From: Rivularia sp. PCC 7116
Lineage (GTDB): Bacteria; Cyanobacteriota; Cyanobacteriia; Cyanobacteriales; Nostocaceae
Assembly: GCF_000316665.1 (NCBI RefSeq)
Contig: NC_019678.1
Coordinates: 4,526,001-4,590,000 of the forward strand
Direction of reading: 5' to 3'
Length of the DNA stretch: 64,000 bases
The position numbers and the translations under genes were made by a program. This document shows, one piece after another, positions 15,868-39,619 of this stretch. Position 1 is the first letter of the stretch. Each line of letters starts with the position of its first letter. The notes beneath the pieces were generated by a model. The model was not told the DNA's origin, searched no databases, and saw only the letters and a program-made list of their open reading frames with translations.

Positions 15868-15933
15868 GCTTATTGTCTCTATCTTGATAAGAAAAAAGGA
15901 TTTTAGATTCTGCATCCAAAATAATTTGTTGTA

Positions 15934-15962
15934 AAGACGGTTTACTTAAAAGCAACCGTCTT
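15934..15962 (+). terminator. hairpin downstream of relA/spoT
   Basis: Perfect nine-base arms AAGACGGTT and AACCGTCTT around an eleven-base loop, 66 bases past the stop. The following sequence has only a weak T content, so termination is probable but not certain. Confidence 0.55.
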
Positions 15963-16063
15963 ATTCCTATATGAATTAACAAAAATGCTGTAATCAAAAC
16001 TTATTGACGATTTACAAGTCTTGTATAAAATAGAGCATAAATACATTATGTTAGGAGCATTTA

Positions 16064-16786
16064 ATGAGTCGTTATAGCTTATTAATTAAAAGTCTTGCCA
16101 GTATTATTGTCGCTACACTTACTGTTTCATGTAACGCTCAAGTAGATAGAACAAGACAGCAGTCTCAAGTTAATGCACAGCAAACTCCACAGCCGAATCT
16201 TGTTTACGGCGATATGATTATTAAGAAAGAATCGGATTATTTAATGATTCCAGTTAGTATATTTCCTGATGCAAACCAGGGAGAGAAAAGCTGGACAAAT
16301 TTATCTAGCAGTTCTTATTCTCGTTCTTATAAAGACAGAAAAAATGTATATAATTTAATATTTTATTCTAAAAAAGACGCTTCGATTAATACTTTGCTAG
16401 ATAAGAAAGCTATTATTAAGTCATTTGATTTAATTGAAAAAAAAACAATTGGGCAACCACGCAAGAGATTTTGGCTGTATAGAATTATTGAACAAGATAC
16501 AAATAAAGATAATAAGTTAAATTATCAAGATGCAACTATTGGATACTTATCCGACTTATCAGGAAGAAACTTACAGCAAATTACCCCAAACAACACTCAG
16601 CTAAATGGTTGGAATGTAGTACAAAGTACTGGAGCAATATTCCTTGAGATAACCAAAGATACAAACAATGATCAAAGGTTTGATACTAAAAGTTATATGC
16701 GAGTAAATTTAGATAACCCCGGTATTGGCAAAGAAATTATTAGCAGTGACTTAGAAAATCAAATAAAATCATATATCGTTGAGTAG
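16064..16786 (+). CDS. hypothetical lipoprotein, 240 aa
   Basis: A lipoprotein signal peptide is visible: basic start MSRYSLLIKS, hydrophobic stretch LASIIVATL and lipobox TVSC at residues 20-23, so the mature protein is probably tethered to a membrane. The rest is a soluble domain with strand-rich segments (MIIKKESDYLMIPVSIFPD, FWLYRIIEQDTNKDNKLNYQDATIGYLSDL). The DTNKDNKLNYQDA and DTNNDQRFD segments resemble calcium-binding DxNxDxxxxxxD loops, which suggests but does not prove metal binding. AGGAG precedes the ATG. I do not recognise the family. It converges with the DMT permease gene. Confidence 0.7.
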   Translation: MSRYSLLIKSLASIIVATLTVSCNAQVDRTRQQSQVNAQQTPQPNLVYGDMIIKKESDYLMIPVSIFPDANQGEKSWTNLSSSSYSRSYKDRKNVYNLIFYSKKDASINTLLDKKAIIKSFDLIEKKTIGQPRKRFWLYRIIEQDTNKDNKLNYQDATIGYLSDLSGRNLQQITPNNTQLNGWNVVQSTGAIFLEITKDTNNDQRFDTKSYMRVNLDNPGIGKEIISSDLENQIKSYIVE

Positions 16787-16800
16787 CAAAAAGTTACCAA

Positions 16801-17670
16801 TTACTCGTTGACAGATACAGCTTTTTCTCGACTGCGAAGTGCTAAAAAACCAGCAGCAGTAATAAATATAGCCCCAACAAATGAATTAGCATCCCATAAT
16901 TCGTTCCAAAACAACCAACCAACTAAAGCACCAAATACAACTGAAGAATAAGAAAAAACTCCCACTTGCGAAGCCGGTGCCGATGCATAGCCGCGAGTAG
17001 TTAACAATTGAACTAAAGTACTGCAAATACCCACACTTATTAACAGCAACCATTCATTAGTTGTGGGAGTCTTCCAAGCCCAAGTTAAAGGTACAACTGA
17101 AACTAAGCTCGCAATTATTGCAAAATACAACACAGTACGTACAGCCGGTTCTGTCGCCGATAATTTACGTATAGTTACCATCGAAACCGAAGCAAAAGCA
17201 CTGCTAAATAAACCAACTAACATTACCCAATTGAAATCCGTACCAGGTTTTAATATTAGGAATACACCGCAAAAACCAACGGCGATCGCCAAACGAGCTA
17301 TAACTGAAATACTCTCTTTTAACCAGCTAAAAGCAACCAAAGGAATAAATATCGGAATAGTCGCTTTCAGCAGCATTGCATTCGCTAATTCAAGATTACC
17401 TAGCACGAAAAACAAAGAATACATAGCAGTAACACCACAGATTCCTCGCACTAAATGCAAATGCAATTTTTGTGTTTGTATAATAGCCGTACCTTCACGA
17501 GCAAATATCGGCATTAAACTTAATAAACCAAACACATTTCTGAAACAAACAATCATTTCGTTTGGTAAACCATCGGATGCTAACTTAATAATTGCTCCAT
17601 TTATAGTTAACATCAATTCCGCTGCAATAATAAATATCGCCCCACGGACAATACTTTGTTTATAACCCAT
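16801..17670 (-). CDS. EamA-type (drug/metabolite transporter superfamily) permease
   Basis: About ten transmembrane helices in two EamA repeats, 289 residues from the ATG at 17670. The frame continues upstream to a TTG at 17709, but the extra 13 residues lie in the GGTCAAA heptamer array, so I take the ATG. The first repeat begins SIVRGAIFIIAAELMLTINGAIIKLASDGLPNEMIVCFRNVFGLL, typical of the family where R-x-x-x-G follows helix 2; the second starts near WVMLVGLFSSAFASVSMVTIRKLS. Such permeases export amino acids, metabolites or purines; substrate unknown. It sits in the plasma membrane. Upstream and downstream genes are unrelated. Confidence 0.88.
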   Translation of the reverse strand: MGYKQSIVRGAIFIIAAELMLTINGAIIKLASDGLPNEMIVCFRNVFGLLSLMPIFAREGTAIIQTQKLHLHLVRGICGVTAMYSLFFVLGNLELANAMLLKATIPIFIPLVAFSWLKESISVIARLAIAVGFCGVFLILKPGTDFNWVMLVGLFSSAFASVSMVTIRKLSATEPAVRTVLYFAIIASLVSVVPLTWAWKTPTTNEWLLLISVGICSTLVQLLTTRGYASAPASQVGVFSYSSVVFGALVGWLFWNELWDANSFVGAIFITAAGFLALRSREKAVSVNE

Positions 17671-17695
17671 GAAATAATTAATAAAGGTTAAAGAA

Positions 17696-17753
17696 AGGTC
17701 AAAGGTCAAAGGTCAAAGGTTAAAGGTCAAAGGTCAAAGGTTAAAGGTTAATT
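17696..17753. repeat. STRR array, GGTCAAA heptamer
   Basis: About eight tandem copies of GGTCAAA/GGTTAAA between the permease start and the hydrolase stop. The same unit recurs near 32530 and 54360. Confidence 0.85.
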
Positions 17754-17762
17754 TCCAATGCC

Positions 17763-18704
17763 CTATGCCCTATGCCCAATTCCTAAAACCCAATCTCGCA
17801 ATAAGGGATTAAGCTGGTTGGGAACTTCATCGTGAGGACAATGACCCGCTCGCAGATAGTATTCTGTTAATTGGGGATAATATTGACGATACTTCTGGGA
17901 ACGTTCTCTGGCACTCATCCAAGGATCTGCTTCTCCCCATAATAACAACAGCGGACAAGATAGCTGCTGCAAAAGTACGTCTACTTTCTCTCCTTGGGGA
18001 GTACTAAAAACAGAGCAAAATACATCAAAAGCACCCTTATCGCTAGAAGGACGACGAATTTCTTCTATTAATTGGTCTGTAATTGCACTTTTATCTAAAT
18101 ATACTTTTTCAAGAGTTTGGCGAATTACCCAAGGTTGGCGAATATATTGAAATAAAATAAATTGAAATAAAGGTAGTTTAAAAATAGATTTTGCAAAATC
18201 GCCTAATAAGTTTTGCAGCTTTTGATTAAAGTCCGGTTCTATTTCGGTTTGTAATGCTTCCGGTTCCGCTGTTGGTTGCTCTTTACTAAAGGGACCAGCA
18301 CTATTAAGCAATACCAAACCCGCAGCAGAATCTGGACGTTGCGCTGCTACACACAAACTTGCATAACCACCGAGGGAATTACCCGCCAATACAGCTTTTT
18401 CACCAATCACTTCGGTAATAAAATCATGTAATTGGTCGCGCCACAAATCACCACCGTACTGCAACTTGGGCTTTTCCGAACGTCCAAACCCTAATAAATC
18501 GATAGCGTATACCTCAAAATCTTGCTGAAGTTCGGCAATATTTTTGCGCCAGTGGTCGGTGGAAGCTCCGAAACCATGTACTAATAGTAACGGCGGACGT
18601 TGAGAATGCTTCTCTCCGGCTTTGACATAGTAAACATTATGTCCGCGCCATTGCCAATATTTACCGGGAATTGGAGTTGTAGAGGAAATTGTAGCTGCCT
18701 GCAT
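17763..18704 (-). CDS. alpha/beta-fold hydrolase, 313 aa
   Basis: A serine hydrolase with all family landmarks: oxyanion-loop HGFGASTDHW (residues 43-52), nucleophile elbow GNSLGG with Ser110, acid Asp in LLLWGEADPW, and catalytic His in AGHCPHDEVP. Length and the YAIDLLGFGRSEKP segment fit the plant/cyanobacterial esterase-haloperoxidase group; in plants relatives act on chlorophyll or lipid intermediates, but the substrate here is unknown. No signal peptide. The last residues, GIGHRA and the TAG stop, are encoded by ATTGGGCATAGGGCATAG, a tandem heptamer array, so the C-terminus is repeat-derived. Its gene is next to moaC on the same strand with 131 bases between. Confidence 0.9.
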   Translation of the reverse strand: MQAATISSTTPIPGKYWQWRGHNVYYVKAGEKHSQRPPLLLVHGFGASTDHWRKNIAELQQDFEVYAIDLLGFGRSEKPKLQYGGDLWRDQLHDFITEVIGEKAVLAGNSLGGYASLCVAAQRPDSAAGLVLLNSAGPFSKEQPTAEPEALQTEIEPDFNQKLQNLLGDFAKSIFKLPLFQFILFQYIRQPWVIRQTLEKVYLDKSAITDQLIEEIRRPSSDKGAFDVFCSVFSTPQGEKVDVLLQQLSCPLLLLWGEADPWMSARERSQKYRQYYPQLTEYYLRAGHCPHDEVPNQLNPLLRDWVLGIGHRA

Positions 18705-18788
18705 TTTTTAAGATTTGTTAAGCATGTTCTCATTATTGTAAAGCAGATAGCAGAAATTTTTCTCCTTCCGATGGAAGAAGCATTTTCG

Positions 18789-18838
18789 GTAATCAATTAC
18801 CAATTCCCAATAACCAATTACCAATTACCAATTCTCTA
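18789..18838. repeat. STRR array, CCAATTA heptamer
   Basis: Tandem CCAATTA/CCAATTC units between the alpha/beta hydrolase start and the moaC stop. It probably does not encode anything. Confidence 0.8.
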
Positions 18839-19351
18839 TTTAAAATAATCTCCCGATTTACCACCACTCTTACTAACTAAATGTATTGATTCAATTTGAA
18901 TCGATTTTTCTATGGCTTTCGCCATATCATATAAAGTTAATGCAGCAATAGAAACTGCTGTTAGAGCTTCCATTTCTACCCCGGTTTCAGCTTTAGTTTT
19001 TACTGTTGCTTGAATCTCGTAACCCGGTAGCTCGGGTAGAGGGATTATGTAAACTTGAATTTTCTGTAACGGTAAAGGATGGCATAAGGGAATTAAATTT
19101 GCTGTTTGTTTTGCAGCCATAATTCCAGCTAGCCTCGCTGTTGCTAATACGTCACCTTTCGGAGCGTTTCCCGATTCAATTGCGGCAAAAGTTTCTGGTT
19201 TCATCCGCACTTTACCAGCAGCTACAGCTTGTCTGATGCTAGAATCTTTCGCTGATACATCTACCATCTGGGCTTCTCCACGATTATCCAAATGAGTTAA
19301 ACCCTTTTGAGCAGACGAACGCAAGGAATTTTGAAATTTTTCTTGTGTCAT
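18836..19351 (-). CDS. moaC: cyclic pyranopterin monophosphate synthase
   Basis: Second step of molybdenum-cofactor synthesis: converts 3',8-cyclo-7,8-dihydroguanosine triphosphate to cyclic pyranopterin monophosphate in the cytosol. The family pattern is continuous: [33 protein letters not shown] at residues 19-52, [34 protein letters not shown] in the centre, and [25 protein letters not shown] in the second half, with [14 protein letters not shown] at the end. The 171-residue length is normal. No other moa gene is nearby. It is divergent from the tRNA-Arg gene, whose 5' end is only 35 bases away. Nitrate reductase is the likely main client in a cyanobacterium. Confidence 0.96.
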
Positions 19352-19385
19352 TTGGCTGACATATGCTAATATTATTGAGTTGCAA

Positions 19386-19459
19386 GGGCGTGTAGCTCAG
19401 TGGACTAGAGCACGTGGCTACGGACCACGGTGTCAGGGGTTCAAATCCCTTCTCGCCCG
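19386..19459 (+). tRNA. tRNA-Arg (anticodon ACG)
   Basis: A 74-base cloverleaf. Acceptor arms GGGCGTG and CTCGCCC pair with one U-U mismatch; the anticodon stem is CGTGG/CCACG around loop CTACGGA, giving anticodon ACG; the T arm is AGGGG-TTCAAAT-CCCTT. The CCA end is not encoded. A run of seven T follows, and probably ends transcription. ACG is usually converted to ICG and reads CGU, CGC and CGA. Confidence 0.96.
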
Positions 19460-20145
19460 TTTTTTTAATATTTGGAATATAAGAGTGAAGAGTTAGAATT
19501 TAACTTTTCGCTCTTATCTTTTTAACTATACGTTACTGCGAGCATTTCGACTCTACTTATGTAGTGTGTACTTTGTAAAGACTCTCGTTCCAAGTCTCTG
19601 GCTGGAATGCCTTCTCAAGAGGCTCTGCCTCTTATATTGAAAGGAGGCAGAGCCTCCAATACTGTATTCCTTGCCGGAGACAAGGAACAAGTAATATTAA
19701 GTCTAAAGAAACCCGGTTTCTAGTCATGAAAGCATCTCAACGTCTTTGCTAAATTACAAAGAAACCGGGTTTCTCTCACTGGTGCAATAAAGTTAAATTC
19801 AAAAAACTTTTGCTAAAAGAGCGCAGAATTAAATTCTCTGGCGAATTAAGAACAACATTATAAAGATATTCTGAAGTTGATTGGAAATTAACTCAAAAAA
19901 ATTGAAGTAATAGCAATCGCTGGCACTTAGCTAATAGCTAATGGGTGGTGCATTTTTGTGTGAAATCAGTTTTCAACACGTCTAAAAATCGCTAAATGCA
20001 TAAGCCAGAATCATTCAAACGTATAGTTAACAAGTGAAACTCAATTTCAGTATTACCAGTCTTCTGAATTAATCACCAGAAACTGTGTAATACAATTTGC
20101 AATATATTAGTAATACAACATTCCTCATTTAGGAGGAGAGGTAAC
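19460..20145. other. gene-free spacer with dispersed inverted repeats
   Basis: Holds a CTCTGGCTGGAATGCC...GAGGCTCTGCCTC repeat (19595-19690) that also occurs in part at 36306-36350, and an inverted pair AAAGAAACCCGGTTTCT (19705-19721) and AAAGAAACCGGGTTTCT (19758-19774). Related CCGG hairpins occur near 42930, 56758 and 58457. The last 150 bases upstream of the sigma gene show no obvious ORF. Confidence 0.55.
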
Positions 20146-20790
20146 ATGCCCTCAAAGCAGATGGCAGAAACTAACGAACACCTATTGATTGACTCGAAAT
20201 ATCGACAGATAGTCGAACAAATTGCCCGCAAGCATACTAGAAATAGCTCGATGTCTTGGGAAGATGCGGCGCAAACGGCTCATGTAAAGGTTTTTCGGAT
20301 GGTAAAGGCGGGTAAATTTCAATCTCAGAAAACGAATAATTTTTACTGTTGGGCGGCTACTGTAGCACGTAATTCAGTGATTGATTTTGTGCGTAAGGAG
20401 AGTTTGCGTAACTGCCCAAGTTTAGATAGAACAATTGCAGGAACTGATGTTTCGTTGTTAGATACTGTTGCGGATAAGTTCAATTTGTTGGATGCGGTAG
20501 AGCGTGCTGATGTTGTAGTAGTAGCCAAAGAAGCAATTAAAAAACTTGTAATATTGTATCCGGAGCGAGGATATCTCAAGCTTTGGCAAGGATTAGTGGA
20601 AGGTAAAAAGCAGACTGAGTTAGCGTTAGATTTGAAGATAACTCAAAGTGAAGTTTCCCGTCGTCGCAAAGAACTTTTAGGGCGTGTTGCTCAAGAGTTA
20701 GGGTTATTACAGCCTGGAGCTATCAAGCAAGAGCAAAATAAAAATCGTCAATCGAAAGCGAGTAGAAAACGTTCTCAAGAGCAGTGGTAG
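20146..20790 (+). CDS. sigma-70 family (ECF-like) RNA polymerase sigma factor
   Basis: A 214-residue sigma factor with the two-domain ECF layout. Region 2 is visible at about residues 20-85 (MSWEDAAQTAHVKVFRMVKAG...YCWAATVARNSVIDFVRKESLRN) and region 4 at about 125-190, with a helix-turn-helix KKQTELALDLKITQSEVSRRRKELLGR. The C-terminal tail is basic and Gln/Lys/Ser-rich. A strong Shine-Dalgarno (AGGAGGAGAGG) precedes the ATG, stronger than most in this window. It is the first of three co-oriented genes, with 157 bases to the DUF1822-like gene and then 323 to the CHAT gene. No conventional anti-sigma gene is nearby, so one of the partners may control it. Promoter targets are unknown. Confidence 0.88.
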   Translation: MPSKQMAETNEHLLIDSKYRQIVEQIARKHTRNSSMSWEDAAQTAHVKVFRMVKAGKFQSQKTNNFYCWAATVARNSVIDFVRKESLRNCPSLDRTIAGTDVSLLDTVADKFNLLDAVERADVVVVAKEAIKKLVILYPERGYLKLWQGLVEGKKQTELALDLKITQSEVSRRRKELLGRVAQELGLLQPGAIKQEQNKNRQSKASRKRSQEQW

Positions 20791-20947
20791 CGGCGAGCAT
20801 TTATTTTGCAATTTTATTATGATTAATCAAAAAAATAGAAAAACTGCACATAGAATCATCATCTCTTTCGTTAAAAGTAATAGACACCTCCATAACTACT
20901 AAATTATTGACGAGAAGCAATGCTAATTCGTCTAGGAATATAAACCT

Positions 20948-22330
20948 ATGGGTAGAAATATCAGTAACTCAACATCTTATACGGGACAAAAAATTATCCA
21001 GCGAATGCCGCAACCTGGAGAAATCTGGGAAGTAAATCGCTCGATACATTCTCCTGTAGAATTTTCTCAAGAGCAGCAATATCAACTTTACTCGGATGCA
21101 GCAAGACAGTTTATGAGAGGAATTTATCCTCCTATGAATGTGATGATTGTCACTAAGGAAGACAGCGGTGTTTTTTCTCAAGAATGGCAATTAATCACGG
21201 TAATGATGCTGTCTGGAGAAACTCAATTTCTGAGCGATGTTGATTTACTGATTCCCTCAGATATTTCTGGTTTAGAAAAAGATGTGCTAGCTCAAACTTG
21301 GTTAGTAGAAGAAATGTTTGCTTGCAATTTAGTTAAACCAGTGGGTAAGCGCTTATCGCGGAATATTTATGATTTATTGCTAAGTGTGGGAGATTTTGAT
21401 CGTCAAATAGTTGCTCAACCACCGGAAAAATCGGAAATCGAACTTGCTGGTTTAAAAATAGGAACGAAAAAAGCGATAGAAGATTTGCGAATAATGGATT
21501 TTCATCGACATAAATTAGCCTGTAGCGATGTATTAAGCATTCCCGTTGCAGCTTACCGCACTTATTTAGACAGTTTGAATTTTACAGAAGCGGTATTAGA
21601 AGAAGCTTTAGAAGTTGATAAAGACTTGTTAGTTGACGCGAAAAAAAAAGAAAGCAAAGTTAATGTTCTTAGTCAATGGCTGCAAAATACATTTGATGCT
21701 CAGTGGCAGTTACTTTGGCAAACTCCATCTTTAGCGATTGCAACTAGAAGTAAGTTTGATTCAAAACCGGATGGGGATGAAATTGCAGCATTAATAAAAC
21801 AAGTATTTTCTCCAGATGAGCATTATAGAAGAAAAGCTGCGAAAAAGTTGGGAGAAATAGCTTTAGGAAATGCCGATGGGATTGAAGCTTTAGTTAATTT
21901 AATACGCACCACCCAAAACGATGAAACTTTATGGGTAGCGGTAGAAAGTTTATGGAAAATAAATCCCGGAAACCCAGCAGCAGGTGTGAGAAAAGTCAAG
22001 CTGCTTGATTTGGGAATGCAGCTAGCTGGTGAAGCGGTGGCTTTAGCAGTAGCTTTGGTACCCAAAGCTGATGGAAAAATAGGTGTTTTGCTACAGGCTT
22101 ACTCTACAGATACTGAAACTGACGATAGCGATAATTCTAAACCGTTACTATATTTACCTCCTGGATTAAAGTTAATATTGCTTTCCGAAACGGGAGAAAC
22201 TTTACGGGAAGTTACAGCTAGAAATGCTGATATTTATGTTCAGCTTAAATTCAGCGGTGAAAAGAGCGAACAATTTAGCGTCAGGGTGGCTTTAAATGAA
22301 GCAAGTATTACAGAAGATTTTGAAATTTAA
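20948..22330 (+). CDS. HEAT-repeat protein with C-terminal DUF1822-like domain, 460 aa
   Basis: A soluble protein with no signal peptide. The N-terminal half is unassigned. Residues 275-340 (IAALIKQVFSPDEHYRRKAAKKLGEIALGNADGIEALVNLIRTTQ) look like HEAT repeats, a protein-binding scaffold. The last 120 residues (VKLLDLGMQLAGEAVALAVALVPKADGKIGVLLQAY, LYLPPGLKLILLSETGETLREVTARNADIYVQLKFSGEKSEQFSVRVALNEASITEDF) match my memory of the cyanobacterial DUF1822 family. The WLQNTFDAQWQLLW segment at about 240 is also typical. DUF1822 genes are, to my recollection, often placed beside sigma factors and CHAT proteases, as here. Function is unknown; I infer an adaptor between them. Confidence 0.75.
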   Translation: MGRNISNSTSYTGQKIIQRMPQPGEIWEVNRSIHSPVEFSQEQQYQLYSDAARQFMRGIYPPMNVMIVTKEDSGVFSQEWQLITVMMLSGETQFLSDVDLLIPSDISGLEKDVLAQTWLVEEMFACNLVKPVGKRLSRNIYDLLLSVGDFDRQIVAQPPEKSEIELAGLKIGTKKAIEDLRIMDFHRHKLACSDVLSIPVAAYRTYLDSLNFTEAVLEEALEVDKDLLVDAKKKESKVNVLSQWLQNTFDAQWQLLWQTPSLAIATRSKFDSKPDGDEIAALIKQVFSPDEHYRRKAAKKLGEIALGNADGIEALVNLIRTTQNDETLWVAVESLWKINPGNPAAGVRKVKLLDLGMQLAGEAVALAVALVPKADGKIGVLLQAYSTDTETDDSDNSKPLLYLPPGLKLILLSETGETLREVTARNADIYVQLKFSGEKSEQFSVRVALNEASITEDFEI

Positions 22331-22653
22331 TAATTAGACATTGGGCATTGGATTATAAATTCCACACTATTCCTGATGCAATTTTCTCACGTATGAATGT
22401 AGGGTGTGTTGTCGCTCCGCGCAACGCACCATGATAATTTATACGTAAACCCAAATTTAGGCTCTCAATTTCTATCGAAATCTCTTTAAAATCAATCAGT
22501 AATTGTTACCTCGCTCCCATTTATATAGAAATAATTCTCTTTTAATTTTTCTCTTTCTCTTCCTCTGCGGTTTTTATCATCAAATACTACCTGATGAAAT
22601 ATTGATTGATGAACTATATAAACGGTAAAAATTAATCATTGTGAATTGACTCC
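22331..22653. other. spacer between the DUF1822-like and CHAT genes with a hairpin repeat
   Basis: Contains a hairpin repeat at 22400-22434 (arms AGGGTGTGTTG and CAACGCACCA, imperfect). The remainder is AT-rich with no ORF. The gap is long for an operon, so the CHAT gene may have its own promoter. Confidence 0.45.
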
Positions 22654-25467
22654 ATGTCTTTAAATTTTTCTCATAAAAATCTCCGGGGTTATTCTTTCAA
22701 AAATCAAGACTTAACAAAAGCGGATTTTTCGTATTCAGATATTCGCGGTGCTAATTTCACGAATGCTATTTTAAAAGATGCCAATTTTCACCATGCTGTT
22801 GCTGGAGTGCAAAATTTTAGAGTCATTTGTTTAATGGCTTTTTCATTTTTTATGGCTGCGCTTTGCGGATATGCATCTGGTTTAACGGGAATTATTGCTT
22901 CACAATATCTTGCTTCTGTTTACGGTGGAAGTACAAGTATTGTTAGCGGTGTTAGTGGGATAACTAATCATGTGGTTGGAGTTACTGCTGTGATTATCTT
23001 TTCACTACTAGGACTTTTCTTTATTGGGACTATTTATAGAGGCTTTTCAGCAGATGTATGGTTTATTTTAGCTGGCTCTGAAGCTGTAATTATCGTAATT
23101 ATTGGGTTAGTTTCAATTATTATTTGGGGTTATCCTGGTTTAAAAGCTGCGGTTTTAGGAGCTTGGGGTGCCGCTGGAGCGGGACTTTGGTCTTTAATTG
23201 GAGTTATTACTATTGCTTTAGCAGTATTTTGGTCTGCCCAAGAACCTTTTTTTGGCAAAATATTAAAAGTAGCGGCTTGGGTTTTAGGTTTATTAACTGC
23301 AATATTTATTTTTAGTGCTGTATTTCAAGTTTCAGATGTTGCTTTACCTCTAACTTTGTTTTTGGCTACAGTGGTTACTTGTGTGGGAATATATTCTGGT
23401 TTCAAAGCTTTAGGTGAAGATAAAAAATATGCTTTGATTCGTACTGTAGGAATTAATATTTCTACTATTGGTGGAACAAGTTTCCGCAGTACAGATTTGA
23501 CGAATGCCGATTTATCTCATGCAATTCTCAAAAATACTGACTTTACAAATGCTAATTTGACTCGTACTAATTTTCATTTAGCAAAAAAGCTCGATCTATC
23601 CAGAGTAAAAAATACTATTTTAATTAATTCAGAAGTGAGAAATTTAGTTGTTACCAAACAAGGTGCAAATAAATCCTACAAAGGCTTCAATCTTCAAGGT
23701 GCAAATCTTGAAAATGCTAATCTCAACGATATTAACTTAACCGAAGCCGATATCAGCGAAGCCACTTTAAAAAATGCTGTACTAGAAAGAGCTAATTTAA
23801 CAAAAACTCAAGCTTTAAAATCTAACTTTCAACAAGCTAATTTAACTGCTGCTTGTTTAGAAGGATGGAATATTGACAGCACTACACAACTAGAAAACAC
23901 AATTTGCGAATATATCTTTTTGCTTAACAATCAACGCGAACGTCGTCCGAGTAGCGGAGATTTTGCACCTGGTGAATTTGCAAAGTTATTTCAAGTAGTA
24001 CTAAATACTGTTGATCTAATTTTTCGTAATGGCTTGGATTTACAGGGTTTATCTGCTGCTTTAACAAAAGTTAGGAATGCAAACCAAGGTACCAATATTG
24101 CGATTCAAAGTATTGAAAATAAAGGTGATGGTGTTGTTGTCGTGCGGGTAGAAGTCCCCGAAGATACCGATAAACAAAAAATTCATGCCGAATTTACTCA
24201 AGGTTATCAAGTCGCATTGCAAGCTTTAGAAGCAAAATATCAAGCCGAATTGCAAAGTAAGGACGAGCAAATTGCACTTTATCGCCAGCATCAAGCAGAT
24301 TTAAGAAATTTAATGCAGATAGCTGCTCCCAGGCACAAGCAGCAACAAGAAAAATTGGTAATTCTCAATTTGCATCAAGGTGATTTACAAAATGGCTTTT
24401 CGGTAACGTTGCGAATTGCCAAACAAGGAAATCATCCTTATTTTGAATCTAAAGGTAAATTACCACCGGCGATAGAGTTAAAAGAATATTATCAAAAATG
24501 GCGAATAGCTTACCGGCAAAGTTTAGGAATTAATTCTCGGTTAGATATTCCCGATACTCAAATTACTAATATCAGTCAGTGCGATTATTTTCATGAATGC
24601 TCTGTAAGTGCTGAAAAGTTACAGCAAAATATCAATTCATGGCTCAATTCTGATATATTTAGACCTATAAAAGAACAACTTTTAGAACAGTTAAACCCCA
24701 GCGACGCAGTTAGGTTTATTCTGCAAACCGAAGATAAACAAGTACGAAAATTGCCTTTACAACTGTGGGATTTTTTTGATCGGTATCTTAAGGTAGAAAT
24801 GGCTTTAAGCAGTGCGAGCTATAAAAGTTCGGAGAAATTATTAGCTCCAGGTAAAGTCAGAATTCTAGCAATTTTGGGTAACAGCAGCGGAATTAATATT
24901 GATAAAGATCGAGAATTATTAGAAAATTTACCAAATGCAGAAGTTGTCTTTTTAGTAGAGCCTCAAAGACAGCAGCTAAACGATGAACTTTGGGCACAAT
25001 CTTGGAATATTTTATTTTTTGCGGGACATAGTTCTACTGTATCTGTTGAAAATACAAAAGCGGATAACCCCAGAAACATTGAGCAGAAAGAGGAAAGAGA
25101 AGAAGGACGAATTTGTATTAATCAAACGGACACTTTAACTATTGCCGAGTTGAAATATGCTCTTACAAAAGCGATTGAGCGAGGTTTATTTTTGGCAATC
25201 TTTAACTCCTGCGATGGTTTAGGGTTAGCTGCGGATTTAGCAGATTTACAGCTTCCGCAAATGATAGTTATGCGCGAGCCGGTTCCCGATAAAGTAGCGC
25301 AGGAGTTTCTTAAAAACTTCTTGCAAGAATATTCTCAAGGAAAAACCTTGTATCAATCGGTACGTGGAGGTAGAGAAAAATTGCAAGGTTTAGAGAATGA
25401 ATTTCCCTGCGCTACTTGGTTACCGGTTATCTGTCAAAATCCCGCAGAAATTCCACCTTTGTGGTAG
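22654..25467 (+). CDS. pentapeptide-repeat, polytopic membrane, CHAT-protease fusion, 937 aa
   Basis: Residues 8-50 are pentapeptide repeats (FKNQDLTKADFSYSDIRGANFTNAIL). Residues 55-265 hold about six to seven hydrophobic segments (for example VICLMAFSFFMAALCGYASG). Residues 275-430 carry a second pentapeptide block (TDLTNADLSHAILKNTDFTNANL and onward). After a linker with a possible coiled coil (about 520-570), residues 570-937 are a CHAT caspase-like peptidase with His792 (FAGHSS) and Cys853 (NSCDG), the catalytic pair. CHAT enzymes cut proteins when triggered by a sensor. I infer a membrane-anchored signal-gated protease. It is third in line after a sigma gene and a HEAT/DUF1822-like gene. 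The substrate is unknown. Confidence 0.85.
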   Translation: MSLNFSHKNLRGYSFKNQDLTKADFSYSDIRGANFTNAILKDANFHHAVAGVQNFRVICLMAFSFFMAALCGYASGLTGIIASQYLASVYGGSTSIVSGVSGITNHVVGVTAVIIFSLLGLFFIGTIYRGFSADVWFILAGSEAVIIVIIGLVSIIIWGYPGLKAAVLGAWGAAGAGLWSLIGVITIALAVFWSAQEPFFGKILKVAAWVLGLLTAIFIFSAVFQVSDVALPLTLFLATVVTCVGIYSGFKALGEDKKYALIRTVGINISTIGGTSFRSTDLTNADLSHAILKNTDFTNANLTRTNFHLAKKLDLSRVKNTILINSEVRNLVVTKQGANKSYKGFNLQGANLENANLNDINLTEADISEATLKNAVLERANLTKTQALKSNFQQANLTAACLEGWNIDSTTQLENTICEYIFLLNNQRERRPSSGDFAPGEFAKLFQVVLNTVDLIFRNGLDLQGLSAALTKVRNANQGTNIAIQSIENKGDGVVVVRVEVPEDTDKQKIHAEFTQGYQVALQALEAKYQAELQSKDEQIALYRQHQADLRNLMQIAAPRHKQQQEKLVILNLHQGDLQNGFSVTLRIAKQGNHPYFESKGKLPPAIELKEYYQKWRIAYRQSLGINSRLDIPDTQITNISQCDYFHECSVSAEKLQQNINSWLNSDIFRPIKEQLLEQLNPSDAVRFILQTEDKQVRKLPLQLWDFFDRYLKVEMALSSASYKSSEKLLAPGKVRILAILGNSSGINIDKDRELLENLPNAEVVFLVEPQRQQLNDELWAQSWNILFFAGHSSTVSVENTKADNPRNIEQKEEREEGRICINQTDTLTIAELKYALTKAIERGLFLAIFNSCDGLGLAADLADLQLPQMIVMREPVPDKVAQEFLKNFLQEYSQGKTLYQSVRGGREKLQGLENEFPCATWLPVICQNPAEIPPLW

Positions 25468-25921
25468 TTAATCAAGTTCGGATAGTTATAATACAAGATA
25501 ATATAAGGCTCGTAGTTGCGCTTCAGCACCTCTTTTATGAAGTACTGAAGCACAACTACGAACATATGTACTTCACCACATTAAATTTGAGGGCTACCAG
25601 CGCTCGATTAAAAAAATTCTTCTAGAGCGCAGAGTACGCAGAGAAAGAGAGAAGAAGAGGAATTGATTATTATTCCGATACAAATAAATTTGATGCCAAA
25701 TGTTGGGTTACGACACGATTCAATAATTTTTGTTCTCAGCCAAATTAAACCGTGTCTAACCCAACCTACTACTTTTATTGTGTCAACATTATGGTGCGTT
25801 AGATGATGTAGAAAAAGTTTTCATATTAACAGATGAATTTTCGTACATCTAACACACCCTACAATAATCTGGTAACTGGTAACTGGTAACTGATTACTGT
25901 TCACTGTTCACTGTTAACTGT
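25468..25921. other. repeat-filled spacer between convergent genes
   Basis: Contains the hairpin at 25510-25561, a GTTGGGTTACGACACG...CGTGTCTAACCCAACCTAC palindrome (25694-25769, the same end sequence as the modules at 6379-7571), and a TGGTGCGTTAGATG...CATCTAACACACCCTAC pair (25793-25863). Confidence 0.6.
25510..25561 (+). repeat. imperfect hairpin after the CHAT gene
   Basis: Arms TCGTAGTTGCGCTTCAG (25510-25526) and CTGAAGCACAACTACGA (25545-25561) pair except at one position. It lies about 45 bases past the CHAT stop and may act as a terminator or be a dispersed repeat; there is no T-tract. Confidence 0.6.
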
Positions 25922-25932
25922 TCACTGTTCCC
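25869..25932. repeat. STRR array overlapping the stop codon of the GH74-like gene
   Basis: AACTGGT units pass into CTGTTCA units. The final codons and stop of the minus-strand gene (GAA CAG TGA) belong to the array. Confidence 0.8.
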
Positions 25933-28465
25933 CAACCATAATTCCACGCCCTGCCAAAGCTGCATAAACTAAGTTGGTATTTCGCATGTCGCCTTCTAAC
26001 CAGGTAAGTCCGGGAAATTGCTGCTTTTCGGGGTTGCTAATTTGCTTCCAGGTTCTACCCATATTTTTGGAAATGTACATGGCATCTTTTTTTGCTCCAT
26101 TGACACGTCCAAATATATAAACGTAAGGATTTTTACTGGAAGAACCTTTACCAAAGGTGACAAATTCGCAAGTATCTACTGATGCGATTGGTTTAAAATT
26201 TTTACCTCCGTCAACAGAACGATACAGTTTGTTGCCTTCAACATCTTCCGGGTTGCGAGCAAAACTCATCCACACATCACTCTGCTTGGTTGGATTGGGA
26301 ACTATTGCCGGACGCACCATCCACGTAGGTAATTCATTCGATGCCCCCTTCCTCCAATTTGCTCCACCATCGTTGCTGTAAAAGAATGTCCAACCGTTGT
26401 AATAGTAAAAAGTTTTACCTTCGGGGTCTTGACGGTCGGCTGCTAAAATATACGAGCTTAAGTATGGATGTATGCTATTTGCCCAAGATTTAGGTAATGC
26501 ATCGTAATGGGTATGTTTGTCGTTGTTGGGGTCAAAAGGTTTTGGTTTTGGATCGTGGTCTAAATTATGCGCTAGTTTCCAGGTTTTACCACCATCTTTG
26601 GTGTAGTGCGTATAAGGTCCCCAAGTCGGCGACCAAACCATGTTGTTGGGATTTGTCGGCGACATGGCAATTTGACCGCCCATTGCAACGGTTTTTCCTC
26701 GCTGAGATTTTTCCTCTTTCCACATATTTTCTGTGGGTACTGACTCAAAACCTTGCCAAGTTTTTCCGTTATCTTTAGTTATACCGTGTACTGGATGATA
26801 TGCCTGCCACTGGTGAAAACCCACAAATGCAGCATAGTTAGGTTTTTTGTAAGCATAATCCATACCCGTTGCTCCCGCTACGTGAGGAAATGGTACGGGG
26901 TATTTATCCCAGTCGGGATTTGCCCATTTATAAGCTGGATTTACACTTATGTTTGCTGGATTAATTTTTTCCTTCGGTACTTGATGACGGTTGGCGTGGC
27001 GAAAACCAATCATGTCCTGTACCGCACTGATTAAATCTGCTCCTCCTTGAGATTTAGGAACCGGGGGAACTCGCACTAAGTTCGCATCAAGTTCTTCCAA
27101 ATTCTGCATCAACCATTTAAAATTCGGCTCTTTTGCAGTTATGTTATCGGTACAAGCCACACCCCAACCGTTTGTCCACCAAACTCTTTTTGGGTTTGCT
27201 GGATCGATTACAACCACCGATGCACCGGTTCCAGAATAAGACTGATAGTATTTTGGTGCTGACGGATTTACTTTATCTTTGGGATAGTTTGGATCGTAAG
27301 CACCCATGTACATAGTTTGCTTGTTCCAAGTATTACCACCATTATTGGAACGGTAAAGATATTTATCGGCAATTGCTATTACTGATTTGGGATTATTCTT
27401 CTGTACTGTTACAGCTGAATAAACTCTTTTATCGCCATCGGGAGTGATATCATTCCATTTTCCGTTTTCATATTTACGCACTCCACCGGATTTCTTACCA
27501 CCATTTTTCGGTTTGGTGCCAAAACTCACGTACAGCGTACCATCAGAAGCAACTGTTCCGCGTAAGGGGTCTTTTCCTCCCGAAATATTGCGCCAGGTTT
27601 GACCTGCATTTTTACTTTGCCATACGCCTTTTCCGTGAACTCCGACGTATATTATTTTTGTCGCTTGGTTGGCTTTGCCAGCATTTTGATCGAAAGCAAC
27701 AAAAGTAAAGCCCGGTATATCTTTGTTCTCTTTACCATTTGATTTATTGTATTCCGGTAAGCTTTTAGCCGCCGGTAATCCACTACTAACCTGCGTCCAC
27801 CCTTGCTTGTCGCTCTTTCTCCACAGTCCGTCGCGGCGGGAAGCAAAGTAAATTATGTCACTTTTATTTGGGTCTACCATCAAGCGTTCACCCGTATCGG
27901 AACGATATTCTTGGTTAGCTCCCATGAAGACATCTTTCTTACCTAATCCTGTTGGTTTCCAAGTATTTCCTCTATCATCGGAAACCATCACCTCACCAGA
28001 ATATTTATACTTCTTTCTCTTGTTCTCCGTAATAATCGAGCTTCCATGCTTTACCGCAACATAAACGCGGCTAGGCTTTTGCGGGTCAACAGCTATACTT
28101 TCAACACCTATGCCACCACCGGAAAAGTTTGTATCAAACATATCCATCAGTGGCAGCCATTTCTGATTTTTGCGGTCGAAGCGATAAGCACCACCAATAT
28201 CCGTGCGGACATATACATCATTGGTTTTTACGGGTGCGTTACCCCGAAGGGGTTTAGCTTCGCTAATCGCCATTCCCGTAACGTAACCCATACCCTGAAT
28301 ATTAACGTTACTCCATTTAAATGATTGCTGCGTATTTGCTCGAACAGATATGACGCTAAAGTTATTGCTAACTAGCAGTATTGCTGCTGTAGATATCAGC
28401 AATATAAAAAAACTTAATTTACGCAGTAGATGAGTGAAATGTAGTTGTTTGCGGAGGATATTCAT
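25922..28465 (-). CDS. secreted GH74-like glycosidase (BNR/sialidase-type propeller)
   Basis: From the ATG at 28465 the protein has 847 residues; a TTG 27 bases earlier is less likely. An N-terminal signal peptide is visible (RKLSFFILLISTAAILLV). The mature part begins FKWSNVNIQGMGYVTGMAISEA, then DVYVRTDIGGAYRFD, the opening pattern of GH74 xyloglucanases, and repeated blades such as SKNAGQTWRNISGG, SNNGGNTWNKQ and SKNMGRTWKQI. In GH74 the Asp of RTDIGGAYR is a catalytic residue; the second is expected in the DPANPKRVWWTNGWG region. Likely extracellular or periplasmic polysaccharide hydrolase; xyloglucan is inferred, not shown. The last codons lie in a heptamer array. Confidence 0.8.
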   Translation of the reverse strand: MNILRKQLHFTHLLRKLSFFILLISTAAILLVSNNFSVISVRANTQQSFKWSNVNIQGMGYVTGMAISEAKPLRGNAPVKTNDVYVRTDIGGAYRFDRKNQKWLPLMDMFDTNFSGGGIGVESIAVDPQKPSRVYVAVKHGSSIITENKRKKYKYSGEVMVSDDRGNTWKPTGLGKKDVFMGANQEYRSDTGERLMVDPNKSDIIYFASRRDGLWRKSDKQGWTQVSSGLPAAKSLPEYNKSNGKENKDIPGFTFVAFDQNAGKANQATKIIYVGVHGKGVWQSKNAGQTWRNISGGKDPLRGTVASDGTLYVSFGTKPKNGGKKSGGVRKYENGKWNDITPDGDKRVYSAVTVQKNNPKSVIAIADKYLYRSNNGGNTWNKQTMYMGAYDPNYPKDKVNPSAPKYYQSYSGTGASVVVIDPANPKRVWWTNGWGVACTDNITAKEPNFKWLMQNLEELDANLVRVPPVPKSQGGADLISAVQDMIGFRHANRHQVPKEKINPANISVNPAYKWANPDWDKYPVPFPHVAGATGMDYAYKKPNYAAFVGFHQWQAYHPVHGITKDNGKTWQGFESVPTENMWKEEKSQRGKTVAMGGQIAMSPTNPNNMVWSPTWGPYTHYTKDGGKTWKLAHNLDHDPKPKPFDPNNDKHTHYDALPKSWANSIHPYLSSYILAADRQDPEGKTFYYYNGWTFFYSNDGGANWRKGASNELPTWMVRPAIVPNPTKQSDVWMSFARNPEDVEGNKLYRSVDGGKNFKPIASVDTCEFVTFGKGSSSKNPYVYIFGRVNGAKKDAMYISKNMGRTWKQISNPEKQQFPGLTWLEGDMRNTNLVYAALAGRGIMVGEQ

Positions 28466-29113
28466 TGGCTTGAAACCGCAGATAAACAGCAAAATTTGTT
28501 TCTATGTCTTTCCTCTCTTTCTTTATGTTCCTTTCAAGGAAGAAAATCAAGATGCAACCAAAAGGAAAGCATACAAACAGGTATTGTCACTGTTTATATA
28601 ACTACAAACCCGGTGTGAAATTCATTCTATTGATTTATATGAAGATAAATATTATTAATTCTTCATCAAAACTTTATAAATTAGTTTTGGTTAAAGGGGA
28701 AGAGGTAAAGGTCGAATACTCCTATGCGAGGATATAACACACTTTTATTTTGTAATAGGAGTGACACTCTTAATTACTTGTGCTGTACGGTTGTTATGGA
28801 TATGATGCTTTTGCTACCTAAGAAGATGGTATTGCTGAATTGAAATATGAATTTGTTTTTCTAACATTTACTAGCCCCCTAAATCCCCCAATTCTGGGGG
28901 ACTTGAAATGATTTATCTCCCCCAGTATTGGGGGTTGGGGGGCTTCGGCATACTTTTAATCAGCAACGCCAAGAAGATGAACTTGTAGTAATAATCCAGA
29001 GTAGGTTACTTTAAGCATCTTCGAGTTTATCAGCGTAAATTAAAGCATCAACGGAGTCAGTAATCAACACCACTCTCCAGTGCAAATTTAGAGCAAAAAA
29101 TACAAATAAAACC
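28466..29113. other. intergenic region with a GC-rich inverted repeat
   Basis: Between divergent glycosidase genes. It includes an inverted pair, AGCCCCCTAAATCCCCCAAT (28873-28892) and ATTGGGGGTTGGGGGGCTT (28927-28945), bounding about 75 bases. A 77-codon frame at 28504-28737 shows no family pattern and is not called. Confidence 0.5.
28872..28945. repeat. GC-rich terminal inverted repeat element, about 75 bp
   Basis: Ends TAGCCCCCTAAATCCCCCAA and TTGGGGGTTGGGGGGCTT are near-complementary, and a second nested CCCCC/GGGGG pair lies inside. Such GC-rich palindromes stand out against this AT-rich spacer. There is no coding content. Confidence 0.65.
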
Positions 29114-30439
29114 ATGCGCGACGTAATCTTTCATGCTTTTAATTGGAAATACAAAGATATTATCAATGCAGTCGATAAAATTCATGATATTGGTTATGGT
29201 GCAATCCTAATTCCTCCGCCTTTATACTCAGATAAAAATGGCGACCAATGGTGGCAACGTTATCAACCGAAAGATTATCGAGTTCTTTTGTCTCATTTAG
29301 GAGGAAAACAAGAACTCCTTGACTTGATTGAGAAATGTCATCAGACTGAACCCAAAATTCGAGTCTATGCCGATATAGTCATTAATCATATGGCTAATGA
29401 AAATAGAGCGGATCGATTAAATTTTCCAGGTGAAGCTGAACTTGAGAAATATAGAACCGATCCAACATTTGAAGATAATCTTTTATACGGTGATTTAAGC
29501 GAAGGTCTGTTCTCGCCTTGGGATTTTAATCAAACTGGCAATATTCAAGGTCATGAATGGTCTAACCGAAATAGAGTTATATATGGCAGTTTAAGCAATT
29601 TGCCCGATCTCAACGATTCACCTTGGGTTTTATTGCAACAACGAAATATGTTTATTGCCCTAGCAAATATGGGTTTTGATGGTTTTCGGATTGATGCAAT
29701 CAAACACATAACGGAAAGGATGATTGATAATTTTGCCGATCGCGACGAAATAGCTTCTAAGTATCTATTCGGCGAAGTTTTAACTGGTAGCGATGACGAT
29801 GAGAATATTTTTATCGATCCTTTTCTTCAAGAAACTTGGATATCTGCCTACGATTTTCCTCTATTCCAAACTATTAGAGAGGCGTTTGGTTTTGGTGGCT
29901 CATTAAGAAGACTAGCTCGTCCCGAAGCTGAGGGCAATGCCCTGCCTTGGTATCGGGCAGTCACTTTTGTTATTAATCATGACATTCCCTATAACGATGG
30001 TTTTCGCAGTTGGTTGTTAGATCGACACGATGAGCATTTGGCTTATGCTTATATCCTAGGAAAAGATGGAGGAGTTCCTTTAATATTTTCTGACCATAAT
30101 GAATCAGTCGAGAAACATCCTGAAGACACAGATAGATGGACAAAGATTACCGAACGGGTAGATCTGCTCAAGATGATTCGTTTCCATAATGCTGTTCGCG
30201 GACAACCAATGGCAATCTTATACGAAAGCGATACTGTATTAGTCTTCCGTCGAGGAAATATGGGAATTGTTGCTATTAATAAAGGTGGAACGGAGAATTG
30301 GGTTGAATTTAATACTTGGGGTTTAAAAAATCCAGGTAACTATCAAGATTTTATTCACCAACATGAGATGAAACTTTCTGGCGATCGCTTTACTCTCTAT
30401 GTTCCTCCCAGAACCGCCCAAATGTGGCTGGCAGATTAG
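29114..30439 (+). CDS. alpha-amylase family (GH13) glycosidase, 441 aa
   Basis: A cytoplasmic-type GH13 enzyme that acts on alpha-glucans such as glycogen; no signal peptide. The four conserved regions are visible: I YADIVINH (residues 85-92), II GFDGFRIDAIKH with the nucleophile Asp194, III GEVL with the acid/base Glu221, and IV FVINHD with the stabilising Asp290. The beginning, VIFHAFNWKYKDIINAVDKIHDIGYGAILIPPP, is the first strand and helix of the barrel. A small C-terminal beta domain follows (VFRRGNMGIVAINKGG). It is monocistronic, divergent from the GH74-like gene. The exact specificity cannot be read from sequence. Confidence 0.92.
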   Translation: MRDVIFHAFNWKYKDIINAVDKIHDIGYGAILIPPPLYSDKNGDQWWQRYQPKDYRVLLSHLGGKQELLDLIEKCHQTEPKIRVYADIVINHMANENRADRLNFPGEAELEKYRTDPTFEDNLLYGDLSEGLFSPWDFNQTGNIQGHEWSNRNRVIYGSLSNLPDLNDSPWVLLQQRNMFIALANMGFDGFRIDAIKHITERMIDNFADRDEIASKYLFGEVLTGSDDDENIFIDPFLQETWISAYDFPLFQTIREAFGFGGSLRRLARPEAEGNALPWYRAVTFVINHDIPYNDGFRSWLLDRHDEHLAYAYILGKDGGVPLIFSDHNESVEKHPEDTDRWTKITERVDLLKMIRFHNAVRGQPMAILYESDTVLVFRRGNMGIVAINKGGTENWVEFNTWGLKNPGNYQDFIHQHEMKLSGDRFTLYVPPRTAQMWLAD

Positions 30440-38191: not shown

Positions 38192-39004
38192 ATGAAACAT
38201 AAATTAAAATCAAACAATCTCTATCTATTAGCATTTCTTTGCTTGGGAACAATCGTTATAGTTGTTTTCGGAAGCCATTTTCAAAACTTGTATTACAATT
38301 TAGAAGATTTAGTCAGACAGTTAGAAGCTCCCTATCATAAATGGGTAGCAAATCAAAATTCAACTAGTCCTATTCTTCTAATTCCTATTGCTTTTATTGG
38401 CGGTTTAATTGCTAGCATTTCTCCTTGTATTTTATCTTTGCTTCCAGTTAATCTCAGCTATATCGGAACCCTAAATATAGAATCTCGAAAAGATGCATTT
38501 TTTAAAGCCAGCTTTTTCGTTTTAGGAGCAGTAAGTATATTCAGCTTGTTCGGATTATTTGCAGCTTTCGCTTCATCTGTAATGGTGGATTTTCGCGGAT
38601 ACATTAATGTTGTAGTTGGTGCAATTATTCTGCTGATGGGGTTGAGTTTTGCGGGAATATTTCATTTGCCTTTACCTAAAAAACAGGTACGCATACCCGT
38701 TCCAGGTCCCTTTGGTGCTGGTTTAACGTTTGCTCTAGTTACCTCTCCTTGTGCTTCTCCGGTGCTTTTCGCGGTACTCGCAACCGCTGCGGCTAGTGGT
38801 TCTCAAGTTCTGAGTACGGTAACGATGATAAGTTATGCTCTCGGATATACAGCGGTAATATTTTTTGCTAGCTTATTTACAGGATTAGTAAAGCAAAGAC
38901 AAGTATTGTTGACTAAATCCCAATGGATTATTCGTTTGGGAAGCGGTGCCTTGATTTTAGCAGGTGGCTTTTATTTGGTTACGGGCATTAAATGGTTTTT
39001 CTGA
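38192..39004 (+). CDS. ccdA: CcdA-type thiol-disulfide transmembrane reductase
   Basis: Carries reducing power from cytosolic thioredoxin across the membrane for cytochrome c biogenesis and disulfide repair. Six or seven membrane helices; the two redox cysteines Cys79 (SISPCILSLLP) and Cys187 (TSPCASPVLF) are in the conserved internal repeat. The protein has 270 residues, and the first 60 (one helix plus FQNLYYNLEDLVRQLEAPYHKW) extend ahead of the usual start. The gene follows a thioredoxin-type lipoprotein, its probable electron acceptor. The downstream sigma gene begins within or right after its stop, so the two are probably co-transcribed. Confidence 0.9.
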   Translation: MKHKLKSNNLYLLAFLCLGTIVIVVFGSHFQNLYYNLEDLVRQLEAPYHKWVANQNSTSPILLIPIAFIGGLIASISPCILSLLPVNLSYIGTLNIESRKDAFFKASFFVLGAVSIFSLFGLFAAFASSVMVDFRGYINVVVGAIILLMGLSFAGIFHLPLPKKQVRIPVPGPFGAGLTFALVTSPCASPVLFAVLATAAASGSQVLSTVTMISYALGYTAVIFFASLFTGLVKQRQVLLTKSQWIIRLGSGALILAGGFYLVTGIKWFF

Positions 39005-39005
39005 T

Positions 39006-39617
39006 ATGAATGTAGCAACACATACCAAAAAACCAAGTAGGTTGCAATCTGATTCGGATATGAGTTTATCAAACCAGACAGAAGCTGAATTATTCCAAGC
39101 ATTGCAAGCGGGAGATTTATCCGCATTAGGTGCTATTTATGACCGCTACGGCGAGGCTGTATACCGTCTGGCTCTACGAATATTAAAGGATAAAAGCGAA
39201 GCTGAGGACTTAACACAAGAAATTTTTTTGGCATTTTGGCGCAGTGCTAAATATGACCCCAATCGCGGAAAGATGATTGTTTATTTGCTGACAATGACTA
39301 GAAGTAGAGCAATTAATCGGTTGCATCAAAAGTCTACTCAACAGAAGCTTTTACAAAGGTGTCAGCGCAGTACTCCGACTCATAGTGAAAGTAATTTGAT
39401 GGAAAAGGTTTCTTTGGGAGAAGTTTCTCAAATCATCGGTAAAGCTTTAGAGGAAATACCAGAAAACCAGCAGCAAGTTCTAAAAATGGCTTACTACGAA
39501 GGATTGAGCCAATCAGAAATCACCGAAAAACTAAATATACCTTTGGGAACTGTAAAAACCCGTACCCGCCAAGGACTTTTGAAACTGAGAAAATTATTAA
39601 AGGATTTAGTAGATTAA
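39006..39617 (+). CDS. ECF sigma factor
   Basis: A group IV sigma factor with region 2 (FQALQAGDLSALGAIYDRYGEAVYRLALRILKDKSEAEDLTQEIFLAFWRS) and region 4 (ALEEIPENQQQVLKMAYYEGLSQSEITEKLNIPLGTVKTRTRQGLLKLRKLL) intact. The start may be ATG 39006 or ATG 39060 (MSLSNQTEAELF); the latter fits the family best. It begins within two bases of the ccdA stop and ends two bases before the next start codon. The following gene is an RskA-type anti-sigma, so this is a classic ECF/anti-sigma pair. Targets are unknown, but the neighbours suggest control of the redox cluster. Confidence 0.93.
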   Translation: MNVATHTKKPSRLQSDSDMSLSNQTEAELFQALQAGDLSALGAIYDRYGEAVYRLALRILKDKSEAEDLTQEIFLAFWRSAKYDPNRGKMIVYLLTMTRSRAINRLHQKSTQQKLLQRCQRSTPTHSESNLMEKVSLGEVSQIIGKALEEIPENQQQVLKMAYYEGLSQSEITEKLNIPLGTVKTRTRQGLLKLRKLLKDLVD

Positions 39618-39619
39618 TC

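Follow-up and report, generated by a model that had tools for sequence, protein, structure and literature searches.

The cyanobacterium Rivularia sp. PCC 7116, whose genome amounts to 8.73 Mb in 3 contigs, carries on contig NC_019678.1 a run of three consecutive open reading frames (ORFs) of the same strand that is the subject of this analysis; the 64,000-nucleotide stretch in which they lie (positions 4,526,001 to 4,590,000) is referred to below as the window. The three encode a sigma factor resembling the extracytoplasmic function (ECF) type, a protein with HEAT-like and DUF1822 parts, and a membrane protein combining pentapeptide repeats with a caspase-like CHAT domain (Table 1). The trio recurs at 22 loci beyond the window, one of them decayed, and is thus a real conserved module, not a chance neighbourhood. 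How it works is a matter on which we find the balance even: a membrane-tethered caspase-like protease may control a dedicated ECF sigma factor via a two-domain intermediary. The observed support for this mechanism consists of the linkage of genes and domains, a rule governing their fusion, and the conservation of both a catalytic dyad and a promoter-like element. An earlier note on this DNA had already described the three genes in line and read them as one module; their ORFs and families were borne out by Pfam and NCBIfam, and the neighbourhood survey, by finding the three together elsewhere, upheld the module too.

Linkage of genes and domains across genomes

The sigma factor represents a rare subfamily, here called SIG. 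It passes the general ECF sigma-70 model, TIGR02937 (aa 18-185, 47.4 bits against a cut-off of 42.9; aa, amino acids), and Pfam's Sigma70_r2 recognises its region 2 (1e-9, over the cut-off), which together place it in the ECF type; region 4 alone found no match in the Pfam scan, and the subfamily profile picked out SigW in PDB (8.8e-7). SIG was matched in 32 of the 291 genomes of the order, in one of these weakly, with a single match in the window's own genome and a nearest named relative, at 93% identity, from a Rivularia metagenome-assembled genome. Weak matches aside, order-wide and phylum-wide searches confine it to the window's order and two genomes of the same class. Such confinement would suit a developmental or cell-division regulator akin to HetF of Anabaena – another cyanobacterial CHAT-domain protein and putative protease, which heterocyst development requires and which is also connected with division (PMC8406250) – yet so patchy a distribution is unlike that of a core developmental gene, and the HetF passages of that paper mention no sigma or DUF1822 gene as a partner, so that we give this explanation very little credence.

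Linkage was counted over 42 SIG loci, the window included, which were drawn from the 291 order genomes, the named loci and four loci of the phylum-wide search; L130 (taken to be the same locus as L104, both on contigs of 73,687 bases), L106 (E 1e-6) and L107 (3e-5) were left out, as were sigma matches with E above 1e-9. The N-terminal domain of the 460-aa protein – NDOM, a name of our own – lies at most 1.6 kb from SIG at 34 of these loci, on the same strand at 33. Searched for alone, NDOM occurs in 25 of the 291 order genomes and, compared by hand, stands beside SIG in 24 of them; G051 is the exception, and in G216 the two genes lie on opposite strands. Two modules stand in tandem at L103, and the sigma and NDOM genes overlap in L084 and L086.

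The fusion rule concerns the other half of the intermediary. At the 34 NDOM loci, fusion of a DUF1822 half to NDOM agrees perfectly with the presence of a CHAT gene within 5.5 kb: 23 loci have both, 11 have neither and none is mixed (Fisher's p 3.5e-9, kinship ignored). Counted among the 23 is the decayed L100, where a sigma fragment is fused to NDOM-DUF1822 and the CHAT gene is broken, and absence of CHAT is unsure at two of the 11, as the sequence runs only 11 bases past NDOM at L076 and about 1.3 kb on one side at L082. On a tree of the sigma factors (40 rows; L099 and L100 were too short to enter it and L093 is unlabelled), supported branches call for a minimum of 3 changes in the ‘alone’ state and the best tree for 5, which means that the rule has outlasted several of them. 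With fusion tracking CHAT in 34 of 34 cases, NDOM can be said to travel with the sigma factor, whereas the DUF1822 half goes with the protease; this division replaces the generic adaptor of the earlier note with one sigma-linked and one protease-linked domain.

Within the window's own genome, which has 44 CHAT and 15 DUF1822 matches, a CHAT gene follows directly downstream on the same strand at 9 of the 15 DUF1822 genes, where even scattering would give about 0.1. The remaining six DUF1822 genes, like the 11 of 34 loci where SIG-NDOM pairs do without DUF1822 half and CHAT, would fit a non-proteolytic relay, in which the second protein would assist the sigma factor as a positive co-factor or membrane tether and CHAT would act by binding; near-invariant His and Cys residues (see below) would not be needed for binding alone, and we regard such a relay as improbable.

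The intermediary, its promoter-like element and the membrane protease

DUF1822 (Pfam, 2e-33) is restricted to aa 212-459 of the 460-aa protein, and this C-half corresponds to the C-half of ordinary DUF1822 proteins from the own and related genomes (hhalign 99.9%); for its beta-sandwich at aa 350-459, the predicted local distance difference test (pLDDT) of the model, taken by tens, runs from 56 to 88 with a dip to 39. Inserted into the half, at about aa 267-349, is a stretch that hhalign leaves mostly unaligned against DUF1822 proteins. Designed armadillo and alphaRep repeats match it by profile at about aa 274-339, the predicted model has helices at aa 276-338, and HEAT_2 scores 25 bits, slightly below its cut-off of 27.7; of the HEAT/DUF1822-like label given in the earlier note, the DUF1822 part therefore holds outright, while the HEAT part falls just short of the Pfam cut-off and is helped by the repeat matches and model helices.

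NDOM itself resembles little on record, its 32 members giving four single weak matches in Pfam, with a best E of 0.036. Two identities were tried and rejected: a degenerate DUF1822 N-half (hhalign 1.2%) and a MazF/PemK-like barrel, towards which weak PDB leads pointed (E 0.26-0.75) but which hhalign against PemK_toxin put at 0.3%. When the NDOM-DUF1822 model was run through Foldseek, most matches were to Brr2 chains of the spliceosome, at a root-mean-square deviation of about 17, and they were taken as noise because the mean pLDDT of the model is 52.5.

Upstream of the intermediary's gene lies a promoter-like element, CACATA-N16-CGTTAA. Its loose form, NNNATA-N16-CGTWNN, which was chosen after reading the gaps, is present in 15 of the 19 SIG-NDOM gaps of at least 60 bases – several of the loci being close kin, with about 8 lineages in all – where dinucleotide shuffles lead one to expect 0.56; upstream of the sigma gene (up to 300 bases) it occurs in 1 of 38 cases, against 1.08 expected. 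Outside the window's lineage most copies read GTYATA-N16-CGTTAA, within it CACATA or TACATA. Two of four loci fetched later matched the element, and the other two, together with the first L103 module, show by eye GGCATA or GGCGTA, a 16-base spacer and TGTTAA. CGTTAA suits an ECF sigma factor as a -10 element, and a promoter before the gene is common to many anti-sigma genes. Gene linkage, fusion pattern and promoter position together make the second gene a candidate anti-sigma factor, so that of the ‘ECF-like sigma without recognisable anti-sigma’ in the earlier note the first part stands and the second is incomplete.

The third protein contains pentapeptide repeats (Pentapeptide, 2.3e-27) and a CHAT domain (1.8e-10) by Pfam, and its six hydrophobic segments confirm it as the polytopic membrane protein with pentapeptide blocks that had been described. 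Both ends of the transmembrane (TM) block are probably cytoplasmic, since the number of segments is even and the inner loops are richer in Lys and Arg. Beyond it, a region conserved in 32 aligned rows (aa 421-560) is one that we label TRADD-N-like by resemblance only; searches with it returned no TRADD chain in PDB, and weak unrelated matches alone in Pfam. The same 140-aa region occurs without a CHAT domain in a 655-aa pentapeptide-repeat protein (L071:3632-5599), whose gene lies shortly upstream of a SIG-NDOM pair with neither DUF1822 nor CHAT. The next domain, aa 561-735, matches the N-terminal domain of CHAT-CHASE2 proteins encoded in DUF1822 loci, from which, rather than from an EACC2 profile, its name of EACC2-like is inferred.

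In the CHAT domain, the residues numbered His792 and Cys853 in the earlier note are correctly placed, and among aligned CHAT proteins of these and own-genome loci the former is H in 30 of 30 rows and the latter C in 29 of 30, the sole row without it being an ORF split in two. This His-Cys dyad, together with matches to caspase-like folds at low TM-scores, assigns the protein to the CHAT peptidases: an AlphaFold2 model of aa 421-937, of low confidence (mean pLDDT 60.2, 6 sequences), found as best PDB matches by Foldseek SAVED-CHAT (4.6e-7), Craspase (7zoq; 3.9e-6) and separase (1.1e-5), with TM-scores of 0.21-0.27 by query length. A further match of this model, to the transmembrane anti-sigma factor DdvA (8rw5; 1.8e-4), is an unexplained lead; going by this modelled likeness, some CHAT-like proteins might themselves act as anti-sigma factors.

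Table 1. Features of the module, with window coordinates
Feature	Position	Strand	Basis or detail
Sigma-70 family ECF-like sigma factor, subfamily SIG, 214 aa	20146..20790	+	Sigma70_r2, TIGR02937
Promoter-like element CACATA-N16-CGTTAA, upstream of DUF1822 gene	20847..20874	+	
NDOM-HEAT-DUF1822 protein, 460 aa, candidate anti-sigma/adaptor	20948..22330	+	DUF1822 2e-33
NDOM, aa 1-230, sigma-linked	20948..21637	+	no Pfam family
DUF1822 C-half, protease-linked, with terminal beta-sandwich (aa 350-459)	21644..22327	+	hhalign 99.9%, model
HEAT-like helical insert in DUF1822 C-half, about aa 267-349	21746..21994	+	hhalign gap, repeat matches
Pentapeptide / 6-TM / pentapeptide / TRADD-N-like / EACC2-like / CHAT protein, 937 aa	22654..25467	+	
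Six predicted transmembrane segments, aa 57-247	22822..23394	+	Kyte-Doolittle scan; segments and loop charges by eye
Region aa 421-560, TRADD-N-like by resemblance	23914..24333	+	conserved in 32 aligned rows
EACC2-like domain, aa 561-735	24334..24858	+	matches N-terminal constant domain of CHAT-CHASE2 type proteins
CHAT protease domain	24859..25464	+	His792 codon 25027-25029, Cys853 codon 25210-25212

The neighbours of the module (examined at 13450-30439) include RelA/SpoT, EamA, alpha/beta-hydrolase, MoaC and alpha-amylase genes, and between MoaC and the module, at 19386-19459, Rfam recognises a tRNA gene (RF00005, 60 bits). Elsewhere in the window, at 38964-40456, another sigma gene (217 aa, Sigma70_r2 over the cut-off) is followed by a 278-aa gene that we presume to encode an ordinary membrane anti-sigma factor.

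A proposed route from protease to sigma factor

The simplest account of the domain split is that NDOM handles the sigma factor and the DUF1822 half the protease. NDOM would hold the sigma factor by binding and inhibiting it, and the DUF1822 half, with its HEAT-like insert, would dock the complex onto the CHAT protein or serve as its substrate. A putative stimulus, sensed by the pentapeptide/TM N-terminus, would switch on the cytoplasmic CHAT domain, which would cleave or remodel the intermediary and so free the sigma factor; this sigma factor, as the probable user of the CGTTAA element, would then transcribe the intermediary's own gene and thereby reset the switch. Release through CHAT-dependent cleavage or remodelling, in line with the proteolytic release of transcription that the earlier note had suggested, is the most likely route, best supported by analogy and anatomy: it is favoured by the domain split, by the element before the intermediary's gene and by the precedent of Csx29, Csx30 and CASP-sigma.

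In that precedent – the type III-E CRISPR system Craspase – the TPR-CHAT protease Csx29 has been shown experimentally to cleave Csx30, the inhibitor of the ECF-like CASP-sigma, which has motif matches in its own locus (PMC10028731). The window's module shares the succession of CHAT protease, middle protein and ECF-like sigma factor and likewise carries a promoter-like element, but it has a membrane sensor where Craspase is activated by guide RNA. Nor does it belong to Craspase, as the second protein's PDB matches contained no Csx30 chain and the genes examined around the module include none of CRISPR type; for Cas7-11 no search was made in the rest of the genome. In another type III CRISPR system, Calp (CalpL-CalpT-CalpS), protease activation similarly leads to a transcriptional response, the protease being Lon/SAVED, unlike the CHAT protease described here. 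CalpT is reportedly the anti-sigma factor and CalpS its sigma factor.

The closest published gene set is that of Kaur et al. (2021, eLife; PMC8195603), whose EACC2-caspase neighbourhoods without a TRADD-N gene mostly include an ECF sigma factor and a DUF1822 gene. The window resembles these in having an ECF-like sigma gene beside the caspase gene with DUF1822 nearby, and an EACC2-like domain joined to a caspase/CHAT domain and to a variable part, in some cases multi-TM. Their layout, however, places EACC2-caspase N-terminally and the variable part C-terminally, whereas in the window the sensor is N-terminal and the EACC2-like/CHAT module C-terminal, and because of this inverted order we consider the module a variant of that kind rather than a plain member. 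Kaur et al. proposed activation of an autopeptidase with the sigma factor as output, and their section on EACC2 loci mentions no sigma-linked N-domain, HEAT insert in the DUF1822 protein or promoter element. EACC2 led to no other relevant work in the literature searched, where we saw no report of NDOM, the fusion rule or the promoter-like element and nothing joining CHAT domain, cyanobacteria, sigma factor and caspase. The general gene set is already in print; this variant and its internal logic were not found in the literature searched.

If that proposal is carried over to the window, with a scaffold role for the DUF1822 protein that we add here, a stimulus would cause CHAT to cleave itself, the sigma factor would be a downstream effector and the DUF1822 protein would not be a substrate. 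This would agree with the observation that, in the loci compared, the EACC2-like/CHAT module is constant and the attached part variable, but it leaves unexplained why the DUF1822 half is fused to NDOM exactly where CHAT is present, and we think it unlikely. Kaur et al. also placed the gene set among predicted counter-invader systems (PMC8195603), in keeping with which an activated CHAT protease might digest many proteins and kill or arrest the cell, as programmed cell death or phage defence, leaving the sigma factor merely to tune expression. The cell-fate or defence response suggested in the earlier note nevertheless gained no positive evidence – PADLOC, read up to E 1, recognises none of the three proteins, and the genes examined around them have a housekeeping-like character – and a dedicated sigma factor with a promoter-like element points to a transcriptional output, which makes this explanation decidedly improbable.

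Several results weigh against control of the sigma factor through its intermediary. NDOM is absent at 8 of the 42 SIG loci, has no recognised anti-sigma fold and is poorly modelled. When distances between loci were compared over 20 loci, those of SIG correlated better with those of the DUF1822 half (rho 0.78) than with those of NDOM (rho 0.44), so that no specially tight SIG-NDOM co-evolution is seen in this measure. To the after-the-fact choice of the loose promoter pattern must be added that a strict form, SWYATA-N16-CGTTAA, has 9 sites in the own genome against 35 for a reversed control, and is outnumbered by that control in each of the 8 genomes searched. Since this pattern is not enriched genome-wide, a broad regulon was rejected, and the module itself is the sole target seen; the pattern is a weak test, recovering the SIG-NDOM site in 4 of the 8 genomes (G000, G154, G274 and G091).

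The window's element is one of the own genome's nine strict matches. The other eight fall between listed ORFs in three cases (L132, L133 and L135) and inside ORFs in five; one of them, G000:C1:3223318-3223345 (L135:819-846), ends 42 bases before a 615-aa ORF, which by this position is a possible further target of the sigma factor.

Apparent exchange of sigma heads and sensor-proteases

CHAT proteins built like that of the module (matching from query position 12 or before) were found away from SIG in 20 regions among the matches listed, a scope that applies to all counts in this paragraph; with two short contigs (L153 and L031) set aside, 18 uncut loci remain. NDOM occurs at none of them. At 12 of the 18, the CHAT gene follows, on the same strand, another sigma-like gene – its product resembling proteins that the own genome encodes upstream of DUF1822 genes – along with an ordinary DUF1822 gene; at 11 of these 12 the pair stands directly upstream, with a DUF1822 protein of ~305 aa, and at L157 it is part of a longer array. 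L142 has the sigma-like and DUF1822 genes downstream, L150 has DUF1822 only, and L151 and L152 have it on the opposite strand. L139 and L145, where the CHAT protein has neither a sigma-like nor a DUF1822 gene, count against the proposed mechanism, as does the finding that 8 of the 11 sigma-like genes, scanned with NCBIfam, matched sigma models below curated cut-offs (best E between 8e-8 and 2e-4 in 7 of the 8, and 0.018 at L146), with few or no Pfam sigma matches; the sigma-like gene of L157 passes TIGR02937.

At L145 and L157, CHAT proteins of this architecture are encoded in tandem, two or three to an array; in the case of L145, 18 kb contain neither a sigma-like nor a DUF1822 gene.

Conversely, at L088, SIG and NDOM-DUF1822 are paired with a CHAT-CHASE2 protein of classical layout. 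Taken with the SIG-free CHAT loci that have other sigma-like genes, this suggests an exchange of sensor-protease and of sigma head around a DUF1822 half that keeps its place in the middle. A wider, tentative reading, possible rather than probable, is that of a cyanobacterial, CRISPR-independent relay from caspase to transcription, in which the DUF1822 half would be the common plug between two sets of interchangeable parts, the sensor-CHAT proteases and the sigma/inhibitor heads (NDOM together with SIG, and further N-halves with further sigma-like proteins), and of which Craspase would be one recruited version within a wider scheme of CHAT protease, anti-sigma factor and sigma factor. We rate it lower because the sigma-like genes match sigma models below the cut-offs.

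As regards control of SIG through its two-domain intermediary, the domain split predicts that NDOM binds the sigma factor and that the DUF1822 half binds, or is cut by, the CHAT protein, and the candidate promoter could be used as a reporter. A function is thereby proposed for DUF1822, a name seldom met in the literature searched. If the proposal is true, bacterial caspase homologues would gain a direct link to gene expression, through a caspase-like protease that governs a sigma factor outside CRISPR.

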